A stretch of DNA of 33,851 nucleotides, taken from contig JAFUJA010000031.1 of assembly GCA_017473905.1 (NCBI GenBank), positions 74,914 through 108,764 of the forward strand, given 5' to 3'. Of the stretch, positions 26,917 through 33,851 are shown in pieces. Under the pieces are notes generated by a model. That model was not told the DNA's origin and did not search any database. It saw only the letters and a program-made list of their open reading frames with translations. The position numbers and the translations under genes are program-made. Numbering within the stretch: position 1 is the stretch's first letter; each line of letters begins with the position of its first letter. Source of the DNA: Lachnospiraceae bacterium. Lineage in GTDB: Bacteria; Bacillota; Clostridia; Lachnospirales; Lachnospiraceae.

Positions 26917-28371
26917 ATGGATAAAGTAAGAACAAGATTCGCTCCTTCTCCTACGGGCAGAATGCATGTCGGTAACCTTCGTACTGCATTGTATGCATAT
27001 TTGATTACCAAGCATGAGGGCGGCGATTTTATCTTAAGAATTGAAGATACGGATCAGGAACGTCTTGTTGAGGGCGCGGTGGATATTATCTACCGTACCC
27101 TTGAAAAAACAGGATTGATTCACGATGAAGGTCCGGATAAGGATAAGGGCGTTGGTCCTTATGTCCAGAGTGAACGTCAGGCAAGCGGCATTTATCTTGA
27201 GTATGCCAAGAAACTTGTGGAAAAAGGAGAAGCATATTATTGCTTCTGTGACAAAGAACGTCTTGCAACTCTGGAAAGAGAAGTGGAAGGGAAAAAGATT
27301 AATGTTTATGATAAGCATTGTCTGAAACTTTCCAAAGAAGAAGTGGAAGCAAAGTTAGCTGCCGGTGTTCCCTATGTAATCCGTCAGAACAATCCTACGG
27401 AAGGAACAACCACATTCCATGATGAAATTTACGGGGATATTACCGTTAATAATGATGAATTGGATGATATGATTCTCATTAAGTCTGACGGTTTCCCTAC
27501 TTATAATTTCGCTAACGTAGTAGATGATCATCTTATGGGCATTACACATGTTGTAAGAGGAAATGAATACCTTTCTTCCTCACCTAAGTACAATCGTCTC
27601 TATGATGCTTTTGGCTGGGAAGTTCCCGTGTATGTGCATTGTCCGTTGATTACGGATGAGCAGCACAACAAGTTATCCAAACGTTGCGGACATTCTTCTT
27701 ACGAAGATTTGATTGAACAGGGATTTTTAAGTGAAGCAGTAGTAAACTTTGTTGCAATGCTTGGCTGGTCTTGTCCGGATAACAGGGAAATTTTTACGCT
27801 GGAAGAATTGGTAGAAGCTTTCGATTACCGTCATATGTCCAAGTCTCCCGCAGTATTTGACTATACCAAGTTAAAATGGTTAAACGGCGAGTACATTAAG
27901 GCTATGGATTTTGATGCTTTTTATGAAAAAGCTCTTCCGTATCTGGAAGAAACCCTTCCTGCAAGTCTTGATTATAAAAAGATTGCAGAGATGGTTAAGA
28001 CCAGAATCGAAATCTTCCCGGATATTCCTGAATTGATTGATTTCTTCAAGGAAGTACCGGAATATGATTCCGAAATGTACGTTCATAAAAAAATGAAAAC
28101 AGACAAGGAATCCTCTTTGGCTGTATTAAAAGAAATTCTTCCCGCTTTGGAAGAGATGGATGATTACTCAAATGATGCACTTTATCAGGCGCTGGTTGCC
28201 TTCTGCCAAGAGAAAGGATATAAAAACGGTTATGTTTTATGGCCGATCCGTACCGCATTGTCCGGTAAGCAGATGACACCTGCCGGTGCTACCGAAATTC
28301 TTGAAATTCTTGGCAAGGAAGAATCACTTGCAAGAATCAGAAAGGCAATTGAGAAGTTATCCAATGAATAA
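26917..28371 (+). CDS. gltX: Glutamate--tRNA ligase
   Basis: Charges tRNA-Glu, and in many Firmicutes also tRNA-Gln before amidation. At 484 residues it has the normal length. The class I signature 1 is [13 protein letters not shown] (about 8-20, the HIGH equivalent); [18 protein letters not shown] follows, then the KMSKS equivalent KLSKR (near residue 249) and the helical anticodon-binding domain. GAGAGGTAACC precedes the ATG. The leader of about 70 bases holds only an AT-rich imperfect hairpin (TTGTTTT/AAAACAA) and no T-box. The last eight bases overlap the start of the helicase gene, so the two are cotranscribed. Confidence 0.96.
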
Positions 28372-30190
28372 ATTGTCTTTTCATGCAGATGAGCTGCAAT
28401 TAAAAGCAATACATCACGGAGAAGGGGCCATGCTGGTAACGGCAGGGCCCGGCTCCGGGAAAACAACAGTAATCACCCATCGTATCCATTATCTGATTCA
28501 TCATCTCGGGGTTTCTCCCGAACAAATTCTCGTTATTACATTTACCAAATCTGCTGCAGTTGAAATGCAGAAACGTTTTATTTCTTTGTGTAACAATCAA
28601 ATGCTACCGGTCTTTTTTGGCACATTTCATGCCTTCTTTTACGGAATTTTAAAGGAACAGTCTGAATTCCGGACAATTTCACTGATACAGGAAAAAGAGA
28701 AAAACAGTCTTTTAAAAGAAGTGATTTATTTACATGCAGGATTTTATCCGGAAGAGGAGATGCTGCAGGAGTTTTTGCGTCAATTTTCATACATAAGGAA
28801 TCATGATATTAAGCCGGAGGAATATGAGCCTTTATATTATGAGAAAGAGTTATTTTTAAAGGTATACCGTGAATTTTACGGAAAACTTTGTCATGTAAAA
28901 AAAATAGACTTCGACGACATGATGCTTATGTGCAGAAAGCTTTTTAAGGATAATCCGGCTTTTTTAGATAAAATAAGAGCAAGATATTCTTATATTCTGA
29001 TTGATGAGTTTCAGGATATTAATGCTGTTCAGTATGAATTGATGCATGCAATTGCCGGAGCGGAAGGTAATATTTTTGCTGTTGGAGACGAGGACCAGGC
29101 AATTTACGGATTCCGTGGCTCGGACCCAATGTTAATGTTCCGTTTTTTAGAGGACTATAGAGAACCGCAGCATGTATTTTTGACGAAGAATTACAGATGC
29201 GACGGTGAAATTGTGAAGCTGGCGGATTGTTTTATCCGGCGTAATACCAAGCGTTTTCAAAAGGATTTCTTCGCAGTACAAACAAGGGATAAGAAAAGTG
29301 TTTTTCTCGGAAATTATAAAAACAGTAAAAAATGTTACGAAGACATGGCATGTAAAATAAAGGAGTTGCTTTTAAATTGTAAGCCGGAGCAGATAGGTGT
29401 GTTATTCCGGACAAATGCTTCTGACCCGGCATTGATAAAATGTTTGGAAGAGAACTGTATCCCGGTAAAGGGCATAAACAGAAAAAAGAAGGAAGACATT
29501 CCTTCGGTCATAAAAGATATACATGCATATTTATATCTTGGAGAAAAGGTGCCGGAGAAAAATGCACTTTTAAGAATTCTAAATAAGCCCTGCCGTTATC
29601 TGCCTACGGATTTATTAAGAGAAAATGATGTATCCTGGGATTCTTTGGAGGTTTTGTTACAAAACGATCCAATATCCTTAAATCAGCTTTTACGGTTAAA
29701 AGAGCATATTACAACACTCCACGGCATGTGTCCCTACGCAGGTGTATTATACATTCGTAAAGCGATTGGTTATGAGAAATATCTTATGGAGGAAGGAAAT
29801 CAAAAGGATTTAGAGATTCTTTCCTTGCTACAGCATAAAATAAAAGAATATGATTGCTTTCAACACTTCGAAAGTGCTTTGGAGGAAGGCGGGGCAGTAT
29901 TTACCGGAGAGAAAAAATGGCATGAGAATGGGATAGTTATGTCAACCATTCATCAGGCAAAAGGACTGGAATATGAATATGTTTTTATACCGGATATTTT
30001 AGAAGGCATGTATCCTTTTCATAAAGCAAAGACGAAAGAAGCATTGGAAGAAGAACGTAGAATTTTTTATGTGGCAATGACCAGGGCAAAGAAAGGATTG
30101 TTTCTGTATACGGTGGAAGAGAAAGCAGAAGAAAAGAAACCGGGAATCTTCTATGAAGAAATAAAAAAAGACCGGAATCACATTGGGTAA
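28364..30190 (+). CDS. UvrD/PcrA-like superfamily 1 DNA helicase
   Basis: An ATP-driven 3'-5' type helicase of 608 residues, shorter than UvrD or PcrA (about 720-750). Motifs in order: Walker A GPGSGKTT (28-35), Ia [31 protein letters not shown] (DEFQD in place of the usual DEYQD), [21 protein letters not shown]-like [29 protein letters not shown] and [19 protein letters not shown]. The 2B subdomain (about 360-500) is reduced. No nuclease domain or C-terminal RNA polymerase-binding tail is visible. The ATG at 28364 ([10 protein letters not shown]) overlaps the gltX end with GAGAAG seven bases before it; the earlier in-frame start is inside gltX without a ribosome binding site. It is likely a repair helicase. 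It is not clearly PcrA itself, so I give no symbol. Confidence 0.9.
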
Positions 30191-30208: not shown

Positions 30209-30550
30209 TTATTCAGCATCTTCATCGGGAATAATTTCATCAAATTCCTGTTTGTCCAGGAATTCATCGAAAGCATCCGCTACTGCATCATATACAGAGT
30301 CATCATCAATGTACTTTAATTCAGGCTCTTTGCTTTCATCATTTTCGTCCTCGATATATTCGTAGAACCATACTTCACCGAAGTTTTCGTCTTCTTCATC
30401 CACCATGGGAAGCAGTGCAATATAGTCCTTATCATTTACGGTTAAAATTGTAATAATGGCACAGCTTACTTTTGTACCGTCCTCTAATTCAAGATCAACT
30501 GTAATTTCTTCTGTTTCTTCTGACACGTTGTTATCCATAAAATCTGCCAT
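30209..30550 (-). CDS. DUF1292 family protein (YrzB-like)
   Basis: A 113-residue, very acidic cytoplasmic protein. The DUF1292 signature region is ITVDLELEDGTKVSCAIITILTVNDKDYIALLPM (about 16-49; strands with a conserved YIALLP), then an acidic loop, EVWFYEYIED, and a C-terminal helix EFDEFLDKQEF. YrzB-type proteins are widespread in Firmicutes and are often next to genes of the yrrK-yrzB set; their job is unknown. Here the gene stands alone on the minus strand between the helicase and GH13 genes. AAGGGAGGA precedes the ATG, and a good sigma-A promoter lies at 30581-30609. Confidence 0.88.
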   Translation of the reverse strand: MADFMDNNVSEETEEITVDLELEDGTKVSCAIITILTVNDKDYIALLPMVDEEDENFGEVWFYEYIEDENDESKEPELKYIDDDSVYDAVADAFDEFLDKQEFDEIIPDEDAE

Positions 30551-30709: not shown

Positions 30710-32527
30710 ATGGAGAATTTTATAATAAAAAAAGGACAAACATATTCTCTTGGCGCAACCCCGGTTTGTAACGGGATTCAGTTTGCCGCAGTGGTAAAGG
30801 ATGCGTCAGCTGAAGGAATTGTCTTGATTCATAAAGCTTCCGGAGAACGAAGCAGGATTCCTTTTACGCAGGGGAATTGTGTCGGTAATATTGCCTCTCT
30901 TTTGGCAGAAGGCTTGAATCCGGAAGAATTTGAATATAACTTTTACAATGAAACCGGCGAGTATACGGATCCTTATGCGAAAAGGGTGTTCGGTAATGAA
31001 CTCTGGGGTAAAAAAGAACAGGCTCCTTTGTTGCGGGGCGGCTTTGCGGAAGATGCGGATGGTGTAAAAGAAGTACCTTTGTGTATTCCTTTTCATGAAA
31101 GTATTTTATACTGTCTGCATGTAAGAGGCTTTACAAAGCATGAATCTTCAGGAGTAAAACACAAAGGCACTTTTTTGGGTCTCGCAGAAAAGGTGAAATA
31201 TTTAAAAAAGCTCGGTATTACTGCAGTAGAGCTTTTGCCGGCATATGAATTTGAAGAATATGAAATTCCAGCTAAAAAGAAAGACGGAATGATGTTTTTA
31301 CAGGAAAAAAACATTCCTTCCTTAAATTACTGGGGATTTAAAAAAGGATTTTATTTTGCGCCGAAGGCTTCTTATGCAGCCGGCACAGACGCGGTAGCAG
31401 AATTTAAAGATATGGTGAAAACACTTCACCAAAACGGAATAGAAGTTGTGATGCAGTTTTATTTTCCGGATTCCGTTCAACAGGGAATGATTCCTGAGGT
31501 GATCCGGTATTGGGTAACCCAATACGGAATTGACGGAGTTCATCTGAAAGGAAATAAAGTCCCCATTGCACTTCTTGCAACCGACCCTCTGCTTGCCAAA
31601 ACAAAGATTTTTTATCATTATATCCCGGAAGGGGAACTTTGCGGATACGATTCCGGTTACAGGAATCTCTGTGTGTATTCCGATGATTTTATGTATAAAA
31701 TGCGCCGGTTTTTAAAGGGTGATGAGGACATGCTTATGACAATGGCCGGATTGACCCGAAATACTCCGCCTCATTGGGGTTGCGTTAATTTCATAACCAA
31801 TTATTATGGATTTACCCTGCAGGATCTTGTTTCTTATGACAGAAAGCATAATGAGATGAATGGTGAAGAAAATAGGGACGGTGCTGAATTCAATTACAGC
31901 TGGAACTGCGGAATGGAAGGAAAGACCCGTAAAAAGGCGATTCTGGCATTACGTAAAAAAATGATGCAGAATGCATTTTTGTTGATGCTACTTTCCGGAG
32001 GAACCCCGGTTTTGAATGCGGGAGATGAGTTCTGCAATTCCCAGGAAGGAAATAATAATCCTTATTGTCAGGATAATGAGATTACATGGCTTAACTGGAA
32101 TGCTGGAAAAGCAGGAAAAGAGATGACTGAGTTTGTAGCGAACATGATTGCTTACAGAAAACAGTGCTTTTATCTGCAAAGAACGAATGATTTTACCATG
32201 CTTGACCGTTACCATTGCGGATATCCGGATTTGTCTTATCATGGGGAAGAGGCCTGGAAGGCTGATTTTTCTTCGTATCAAAGACATATCGGAATGCTTT
32301 ACAGTAAGTCTGATGTATCCAAGAAAGAAACAGAACTGGAATATGTTGCTTACAATATGCATTGGGAGGAGAAAAACTTTTATCTTCCCGCACCGCCCAG
32401 GCAAAAATGCTGGTGTTGCAGGTATTCTACCGATGAAGTGAATGAATTGGAAGAAAACGGTTTTTGCGTGTCCGGCAGAAGTATTGCTATTTTTACATTA
32501 AAAGATGCACCAAAGGAGAAGAAGTGA
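30710..32527 (+). CDS. GH13 debranching-enzyme homologue lacking catalytic residues (probable pseudoenzyme)
   Basis: A 605-residue homologue of glycogen debranching enzymes and isoamylases (GlgX/TreX/pullulanase group). It has an N-terminal CBM48-like domain (about 10-95), a barrel with the family blocks HVRGFTKHESSGVKHKGTFLG (137-157), NYWGF and FYFAPKASYA (206-224), and the block QDLVSYDRKHNEMNGEENRD (371-390) that in GlgX follows catalytic region IV. Yet the catalytic positions differ. Region I, normally DVVYNH, reads MQFYFPD (248-254). Region II, normally GVDGFRFD, is GIDGVHLKG with Lys280 at the nucleophile. Region III has FYHYIPEG in place of the acid/base segment (AEPW). Region IV has TNYYGF, with Tyr365-Tyr366 at the HD pair. 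The frame is intact with a good promoter and ribosome binding site, so it is not a decaying pseudogene. It may bind glycogen or regulate it rather than cleave it. Confidence 0.85.
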   Translation: MENFIIKKGQTYSLGATPVCNGIQFAAVVKDASAEGIVLIHKASGERSRIPFTQGNCVGNIASLLAEGLNPEEFEYNFYNETGEYTDPYAKRVFGNELWGKKEQAPLLRGGFAEDADGVKEVPLCIPFHESILYCLHVRGFTKHESSGVKHKGTFLGLAEKVKYLKKLGITAVELLPAYEFEEYEIPAKKKDGMMFLQEKNIPSLNYWGFKKGFYFAPKASYAAGTDAVAEFKDMVKTLHQNGIEVVMQFYFPDSVQQGMIPEVIRYWVTQYGIDGVHLKGNKVPIALLATDPLLAKTKIFYHYIPEGELCGYDSGYRNLCVYSDDFMYKMRRFLKGDEDMLMTMAGLTRNTPPHWGCVNFITNYYGFTLQDLVSYDRKHNEMNGEENRDGAEFNYSWNCGMEGKTRKKAILALRKKMMQNAFLLMLLSGGTPVLNAGDEFCNSQEGNNNPYCQDNEITWLNWNAGKAGKEMTEFVANMIAYRKQCFYLQRTNDFTMLDRYHCGYPDLSYHGEEAWKADFSSYQRHIGMLYSKSDVSKKETELEYVAYNMHWEEKNFYLPAPPRQKCWCCRYSTDEVNELEENGFCVSGRSIAIFTLKDAPKEKK

Positions 32528-32564: not shown

Positions 32565-32915
32565 ATGAATTCTTGTTTATTTTCACTTTTATTACTTTGC
32601 TGTTGCGGCGGTAATTCAGGCTGCGGTAACAACTACGGAGGTTCCTGTGGTAACAGTCACAAACATTACGGATGTACCGGTAATTTTAACGGATACAAAT
32701 GTACCTGCTATGAAAATGGCAATAACTGCTATACCTGCAACTGTTACAAGGATTGCTGCTGTGAAGCAATGGAAGCAGCTGCCCAGTGCGCAGCGGTAAC
32801 TGATTGCAATAAGAAAGCATGTATTTGCAACAATAACTACAACAAGTGTTGTAATAACACAATTCCGGCATATCCCGGATACGGCTCAACAATCGGCTGC
32901 GGTTGTGATGATTAA
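32565..32915 (+). CDS. Cysteine-rich, asparagine-rich small protein
   Basis: A 116-residue protein with 23 cysteines (20%), many Asn, Gly and Tyr, and little else. A short hydrophobic start (SCLFSLLLLCCCGG) runs into repeats such as CGNNYGGSCGN, CTCYENGNNCYTCNC and CICNNNYNKCCNN, with a brief helical stretch EAMEAAAQCAAV near 67-78. There is no CXXCH haem motif or clear zinc finger. Composition resembles spore-coat or exosporium Cys-rich proteins, or a metal- or disulfide-crosslinked structural protein, but I cannot place it in a known family. CGGAGA precedes the ATG. It lies between the GH13 gene and trpS on the same strand. Because the frame is long, has a ribosome binding site and a stable composition, I think it is a real gene. 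Confidence 0.7.
   Translation: MNSCLFSLLLLCCCGGNSGCGNNYGGSCGNSHKHYGCTGNFNGYKCTCYENGNNCYTCNCYKDCCCEAMEAAAQCAAVTDCNKKACICNNNYNKCCNNTIPAYPGYGSTIGCGCDD

Positions 32916-32982: not shown

Positions 32983-33851
<869 letters not shown>

Follow-up and report, generated by a model that had tools for sequence, protein, structure and literature searches.

A GlgX-Like Clade of Lachnospiraceae That Lacks the Catalytic Nucleophile and May Bind Glycogen Rather Than Cut It

The Locus

The window analyzed here, a stretch of 33,851 nucleotides from a Lachnospiraceae bacterium, carries toward its end a gene for a GlgX/isoamylase homolog with a dead active site, referred to below as pseudo-GlgX (Table 1). As a preliminary description of this DNA had stated, the frame is intact; it has an ATG start, 605 residues, and a stop codon. 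The same description was right that the GlgX/isoamylase scaffold is kept: NCBIfam TIGR02100 (GlgX) matches the protein in two long stretches (E 2.9e-88), plant isoamylase 1 and GlgX are the nearest solved structures by sequence in the PDB, and the EENRD segment that it had singled out lies at E386-E-N-R-D390. The equivalog level of TIGR02100 is not reached (297 bits, with a cut-off of 641), and Pfam recognizes the alpha-amylase barrel only in part (E 9.2e-07). By eye, no signal peptide is apparent at the N-terminus, and the protein is probably cytoplasmic. Its own genome, a 71% complete assembly, gives one match, the window gene itself; active GlgX was not seen there, which at this completeness proves nothing.

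Neighboring genes were compared at 48 loci, each taken with as much as 8 kb of flanking sequence. Nine clusters recur at more than 10 of these loci, including the UvrD-like and DUF1292 genes, glutamyl-tRNA synthetase (gltX, 28 loci), DUF5662 (20 loci), and the W/Y-type synthetase that is cut by the window end and that we take, from a motif, to be trpS-like. The remaining clusters, read from the N-termini of their members, are ABC ATPases (including ABC-F), ABC permeases, a substrate-binding lipoprotein, and a LuxS-like protein. A link to a glg operon was sought at all 48 loci and not seen; there is no glg gene among the nine recurrent clusters, and the smaller clusters are named in part. At eight loci (L097, L098, L105-L109, and L119), a gene of a lipoprotein cluster lies directly upstream on the same strand, its end no more than 30 bases from the pseudo-GlgX start, which may reflect an operon; the cluster is designated Peripla_BP_4 from the Pfam match of its L097 member. 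Downstream of pseudo-GlgX, six of the 48 loci have a gene from a cluster whose scanned member matches TraX. In the window, the space between pseudo-GlgX and the synthetase is occupied by a Cys- and Asn-rich protein of 116 residues with no match in Pfam or NCBIfam.

Table 1. Features at the pseudo-GlgX locus, in window coordinates; residue numbers are those of the window protein.
Feature	Coordinates	Strand	Basis or occurrence
UvrD/PcrA-like helicase gene, recurrent upstream neighbor	28286..30190	+	33/48 loci
DUF1292 gene, recurrent neighbor on the opposite strand	30209..30550	-	32/48 loci
Pseudo-GlgX gene	30710..32527	+	605-aa GlgX/isoamylase homolog with dead active site
W208, equivalent of Trp222 (-1 sugar contact)	31331..31333	+	126/126 in clade; contact list in available part of PMC9530166
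Region I, QFYFPD (Q249-D254) replacing DVV(Y/F)NH	31454..31471	+	Alignment to active-type GlgX
Loop I-II, shortened to 21 residues	31472..31534	+	20-24 in clade, 64-67 in active-type GlgX
Region II, GVHLKG replacing GFRFDL; V277-H278-L279-K280 at FRFD	31535..31552	+	Alignment
Lys280, at the nucleophile position	31547-31549	+	Alignment
Region III, IFYHYI (I300-I305) replacing LIAEVW; His303 at the acid/base position	31607..31624	+	Alignment
Region IV, NYYGF replacing (C/A)HDGF; Y365-Y366-G-F at HDGF	31799..31813	+	Alignment
E386 of NGEENRDG, equivalent of the Glu470 contact	31865..31867	+	126/126 in clade; available part of PMC9530166
GNNNPY motif; N450 = Asn534, Y452 = Tyr536	32048..32065	+	N450 126/126 in clade; available part of PMC9530166
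Cys- and Asn-rich 116-aa protein	32565-32912	+	
W/Y-type class I tRNA synthetase, cut by window end, recurrent downstream neighbor	32998..33849	+	21/48 loci

Loss of the Catalytic Residues

Regions I to IV were placed by aligning the window protein with active-type GlgX from Lachnospiraceae. The Asp nucleophile, the Glu acid/base, and the Asp stabilizer are all absent, and K280, H303, and Y366 stand at their positions. For a wider view, GlgX-like frames were sorted by whichever whole-protein profile scored higher, that of the clade (130 frames) or that of active GlgX (32 frames); these profiles take in the catalytic columns, and since loci were selected from the top matches, the sample is not random. 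Where proteins agreed completely across the final 400 residues, one was entered. The rows dropped were L028 and L029, which are cut by contig ends, the pullulanase-like L173 (120 and 192 bits), and L076, whose frame is split. The alignment then held 157 proteins, 126 of the clade and 31 of the active type. The split relative (L076:5869-8183) runs over two overlapping frames, through either an assembly frameshift or real decay.

While every active-type GlgX has the nucleophile Asp (31/31), none of the 126 clade members does, a contrast too complete to be chance, and the position is filled by K (42), L (18), N (18), M (17), and other residues, never by D or E. The other signature residues, each present in 31/31 active-type proteins, are retained only by minorities of the clade: the region I His in 2/126, the region II Arg in 7/126, the region IV His and Asp in 31/126 and 18/126, and the region III Glu and Trp in 17/126 each, this last column being the least surely aligned. 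Counted by protein, 93 clade members keep none of the three catalytic carboxylates, 31 keep one, and two keep two, the nucleophile never being among them. The preliminary description had named the replaced residues of regions I to IV correctly, and its statement that every catalytic position is replaced holds for the window protein but not for the clade as a whole, given the 31 of 126 members with one carboxylate and the two with a pair. Two proteins, L075 and L179, have the region II Arg together with the region IV His and Asp and lack the nucleophile; they may represent intermediate steps of loss. Altogether, 18 positions that are conserved in active-type GlgX are lost in the clade, 15 of them between residues 249 and 329.

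The active-site loops are altered as well. Between regions I and II, all 126 clade members have 20-24 residues, as opposed to 64-67 in the active type, and between regions II and III they have 18-19 as opposed to 32-33; the ranges do not overlap in either case, and the medians (21 vs 65 and 19 vs 33) place the clade loops about 44 and 14 residues shorter. The full-length loops that characterize GlgX (GH13_11) are thus missing. The stretch from region III to region IV is variable in the clade (39-145 residues vs 66-75), and the spacing from region IV to the GNNN block is 78 residues in every protein of both groups. Loss of GlgX-type catalysis in the clade is well supported by these alignments. 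Membership in GlgX itself was rejected because of the sub-cut-off TIGR02100 score, the lost catalytic residues, and the short loops.

A Single Clade Within Lachnospiraceae

In a tree of 61 clade members, drawn at random from the 126 and excluding the window protein, together with the 31 active-type proteins, the clade forms one side of a single branch with an SH-aLRT of 100. The same branch has a local support of 100 in a FastTree phylogeny of all 157 proteins; the tree programs flag long branches inside the clade.

In one set of 61 genomes (that of the window included), 39 have a match at E 0.001, and in a sample across Lachnospiraceae 252 of 299 do; active GlgX and pullulanases are counted in both figures. 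A stricter hand count, in which the score serves as a proxy, finds 232 of the 299 genomes with a best match below E 1e-74, beyond the best of active GlgX (6.6e-67), and this proxy misses G183 and G242, both later placed in the clade. Profile searches gave matches in 73 of 295 genomes of the order at E 1e-60, and in 21 of 391 genomes of the class and three of 388 of the phylum at E 1e-85. At these thresholds, below which fragments would escape, no long unbroken match of the clade type was seen outside Lachnospiraceae; matches beyond the family are either broken at the I-II loop, like active GlgX, or partial. The named loci are assigned to Lachnospiraceae or to the genera Butyrivibrio and Eisenbergiella, with one labeled Eubacteriales only. 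In the sampled genomes, a large clade of dead GlgX-like proteins is therefore found in Lachnospiraceae only.

Selection on the Altered Protein

For 30 clade pairs above 78% identity, dN/dS lies at 0.031-0.096 in 29 and at 0.171 in one, with a median of 0.066; six active-type pairs give 0.038-0.115. These values were obtained by the Nei-Gojobori method within the span of the window protein, from pairs that share members, with dS below 1 in 11 of the 30 clade pairs and in none of the six active-type pairs. They bear out the purifying selection that the preliminary description had proposed to look for. Its further question, whether the altered regions are conserved among orthologs, receives a divided answer. 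Within the genus of the window (24 proteins), where the median column conservation is 0.67, nine residues of these regions (Q249, Y251, F252, P253, H278, K280, G281, Y365, and Y366) are each found in 24/24. Across genera, H278 is kept in 104/126 clade proteins, but the nucleophile position varies, making a single conserved replacement less likely. Over the whole clade, 29 of the 605 columns are invariant, and two residues are clade-specific at a level of 90%, K219 (115/126) and D499 (123/126).

The clade thus combines GH13 homology with missing catalytic residues and retention by selection, the marks of a GH13 pseudoenzyme. The view that the protein is conserved and non-catalytic is strongly supported at the level of sequence, by the nucleophile that is lacking in every member, the single branch, and the low dN/dS.

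Surviving Glucan Contacts

According to the available part of the report on Streptomyces venezuelae GlgX, acarbose is contacted at the -1 sugar by Trp222, Tyr224, His271, Asp342, Glu378, Trp380, and His449, and at its other sugars by Arg212, Glu470, Asn534, and Tyr536 (PMC9530166). These residues were placed through PDB entry 7u39, whose chain numbering runs 3 higher than that of the paper, aligned to active-type GlgX. At the -1 sugar, the Trp222 equivalent is invariant and that of Tyr224 is always aromatic (Y 96, F 30), and the other five contacts are lost or mostly lost in the clade. Beyond the -1 sugar, the equivalents of Glu470, Asn534, and Tyr536 are kept, the last as Y in 117 and W in nine proteins and hence aromatic in all 126; the Arg212 equivalent falls in a segment of varying length and is not placeable. 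With the Trp222, Glu470, and Asn534 equivalents invariant and the catalytic residues lost, what survives is the cleft beyond the cutting point along with two aromatic -1 contacts.

This pattern suggests that the clade still binds alpha-glucan, and it lends indirect support to the glucan-binding role put forward in the preliminary description. The retained residues may serve folding instead. N450 and the GNNN block are conserved in active-type GlgX too, and the Glu470 equivalent is not universal there (11 of the 31 proteins have E there, and 20 have W). As for recognizable domains, Pfam finds Alpha-amylase in all 67 clade members scanned at E 0.01 and CBM_48 in nine of the 67.

Co-occurrence With Glycogen Genes

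Eighty genomes of 91-100% completeness were compared: 12 from the genus of the window, 60 more drawn from the match lists, and eight chosen for having no match to the window protein, so that the set is not random. GlgA and GlgD are present in all 80 and GlgP in 78 (at E 1e-150), and glycogen metabolism can accordingly be taken as present in nearly all of them; being near-universal, these genes do not discriminate for or against the dead clade. One GlgA-like match below the cut-off lies within an open frame of 947 residues (G076:C72:14810-16477), possibly a fusion. The dead copy occurs in 67 genomes and active-type GlgX in 24, with 21 genomes having both, 46 the dead copy only, three the active type only, and 10 neither. 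Most of these genomes were assigned by the shape of their profile match; through the matching of loci to genomes, catalytic residues were inspected in 46 of the 67 dead-copy genomes and eight of the 24 active-type ones, and G183 was assigned to the clade from the full protein L167, whereas for G242 and G149 the assignment used fragments truncated at contig ends. A type I pullulanase exceeds its cut-off in 13 genomes, and GDE_C matches occur in 11, six of them with E below 1e-100. The dead copy is evidently not needed for glycogen metabolism as such, since 13 of the 80 GlgA-bearing genomes are without it, a figure affected by the eight genomes selected for having no match.

Possible Functions

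A dead version of the protein that is kept under strong selection across Lachnospiraceae probably holds or senses glycogen and does not cut it. The explanation we favor, with rather more confidence than doubt, is that pseudo-GlgX is a cytoplasmic non-catalytic pseudoenzyme that binds alpha-glucan and probably acts as an adaptor or regulator of glycogen metabolism; both the link to glycogen and the adaptor or regulator role are what we infer for the clade from the evidence above. In mechanistic terms, a protein derived from GlgX has lost GlgX-type catalysis and would still bind alpha-glucan chains with that portion of the former cleft where sugars past the cleavage site are contacted. Pseudo-GlgX could then, for example, keep glycogen or limit dextrin close to GlgP, GlgA, or GlgB, or keep it apart from them; alternatively, it could report the state of the glucan chains to a partner. 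A more ambitious version is tentative and, to us, somewhat doubtful: that the clade is an undescribed bacterial counterpart of plant ISA2 which works without active isoamylase, reads glycogen through its remodeled pocket, sets storage or breakdown in most Lachnospiraceae, and has been misnamed a debrancher in surveys of gut glycogen.

Two rivals are live. The first, which we consider unlikely, is a metabolite sensor that signals via a partner and whose pocket, opened and remodeled, takes up not glucan but some small sugar or a sugar phosphate. Six pocket replacements that do not vary in the window's genus (Q249, Y251, H278, K280, Y365, and Y366) and the wide retention of H278 across the clade would suit such a pocket, and the Peripla_BP_4-cluster gene directly upstream at eight of the 48 loci is a possible hint of sugar sensing; as the nucleophile position varies between genera, one shared ligand contact there is improbable.

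The second, to which we give still less weight, is a subunit in the manner of plant ISA2, in which the dead protein pairs with an active GlgX and tunes its activity. ISA2 is, in the available text of two papers, a dead GH13_11 paralog that joins ISA1 (PMC12510319, PMC12892837), and 21 of the 24 genomes with active-type GlgX also carry the dead copy. However, the dead copy is the commoner of the two, and 46 of its 67 carriers, including five of the 12 genomes tested from the window's genus, have no active-type GlgX, so an obligate partnership of the ISA1/ISA2 type with GlgX is unlikely. Of these 46 genomes, 37 are also without a type I pullulanase over the cut-off and without a strong GDE_C match. 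Moreover, the clade profile scores ISA1 chains at up to 426 bits and ISA2 chains at 226 and 216, which makes the clade unlike an ISA2 ortholog; orthology to ISA2 was rejected on these profile scores.

Those same 37 genomes raise the question of a rewired enzyme acting on alpha-glucans, which might even supply their debranching activity. All have GlgA and GlgD and 36 have GlgP, and none of the three debranching families sought is found at the thresholds used, G152 having a weak GDE_C match (E 5.1e-06). Candidate carboxylates exist, since the clade never varies at D275, D372, E386, E403, D439, E440, and D455, and the clade-specific D499 is nearly invariant. All of the invariant ones apart from E386 are, however, conserved in active-type GlgX too and probably have a structural role, none of the 126 proteins has a carboxylate in place of the nucleophile, and two active-site loops are shortened, so we regard a rewired enzyme as very unlikely. 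That the gene is a decaying former debranching gene without function is rejected with near certainty, for although catalytic residues are lost and the frame of one relative (L076) is broken in two, dN/dS in the clade resembles that of the active type, 29 residues are invariant, matches stronger than active GlgX occur in 232 of 299 genomes by the hand count, the frames form one clade and are mostly intact, and the replacements are conserved within the genus.

If the favored explanation of a non-catalytic glucan-binding protein is right, some genes have been wrongly called debranching enzymes, and a non-catalytic glycogen protein of wide occurrence has escaped study. Lachnospiraceae belong to the core bacteria of the gut. 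Glycogen storage has been proposed as a trait of gut niche adaptation, in a survey that, in its available part, looked for glycogen genes with BLASTP, asking for 20% identity across half of the length, and combined this with profiling of functional annotations; such a search could take a dead protein for a debranching enzyme (PMC10395257).

Comparison With Known Systems

Our literature searches, which covered open-license papers only, turned up no description that we recognized as that of a dead GlgX-like clade. Proteins that may belong to it have been listed under other names. In the available portion of the source, glgX2 of Butyrivibrio hungatei MB2003 (bhn_I1315) is a GH13 "glycogen debranching enzyme" of 648 residues without CBM48, given beside glgX1, which has 726 residues and CBM48 (PMC5716241); the size of glgX2 and its missing CBM48 fit the clade, a comparison made by description only. 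A gene called glgX2, there tagged bhn_I1336, is upregulated on pectin in monoculture (log2 3.27) in the accessible part of a second study (PMC6344614), and two glgX homologs are mentioned for Blautia obeum in the text at hand of the gut survey (PMC10395257). Both the Blautia obeum homologs and B. hungatei glgX2 may include a protein of the clade. Dead isoforms in prokaryotic glycogen metabolism would not be unheard of, as a table legend marks archaea with one inactive isoform (PMC11046441, legend only).

With GlgX, TreX, and isoamylase (GH13_11) the clade shares sequence homology over the barrel and its flanks and the contacts W208, E386, N450, and Y452. It differs in having no nucleophile, with the window protein also lacking the acid/base and the second Asp, and in its shortened loops; alpha-1,6 hydrolysis is not expected from such a sequence. 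A likeness is also offered by 4F2hc and rBAT, which occur in animals and stand nearer to alpha-glucosidases than to GlgX. Their ectodomains are described, in the available section of a review, as "fake or orphan" glucosidases of the alpha-amylase family with another job, although that job is to serve as subunits of amino-acid transporters (PMC8537225). A further parallel is plant ISA2, a dead GH13_11 paralog kept by selection, with the nucleophile site of the clade likewise dead. The accessible passages report that the nucleophile varied in every ISA2 examined (PMC12510319) and that four glucose units, in the C-terminal segment, are all that ISA2 binds (PMC12892837). Unlike ISA2, the clade belongs to a separate taxon, is not nearest to ISA2 by sequence, and mostly occurs in genomes without active GlgX. 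Selection for the dead isoamylase ISA2 is called not understood in the text available to us (PMC12510319), and the clade gives a bacterial system in which to ask what would favor the retention of a dead isoamylase.
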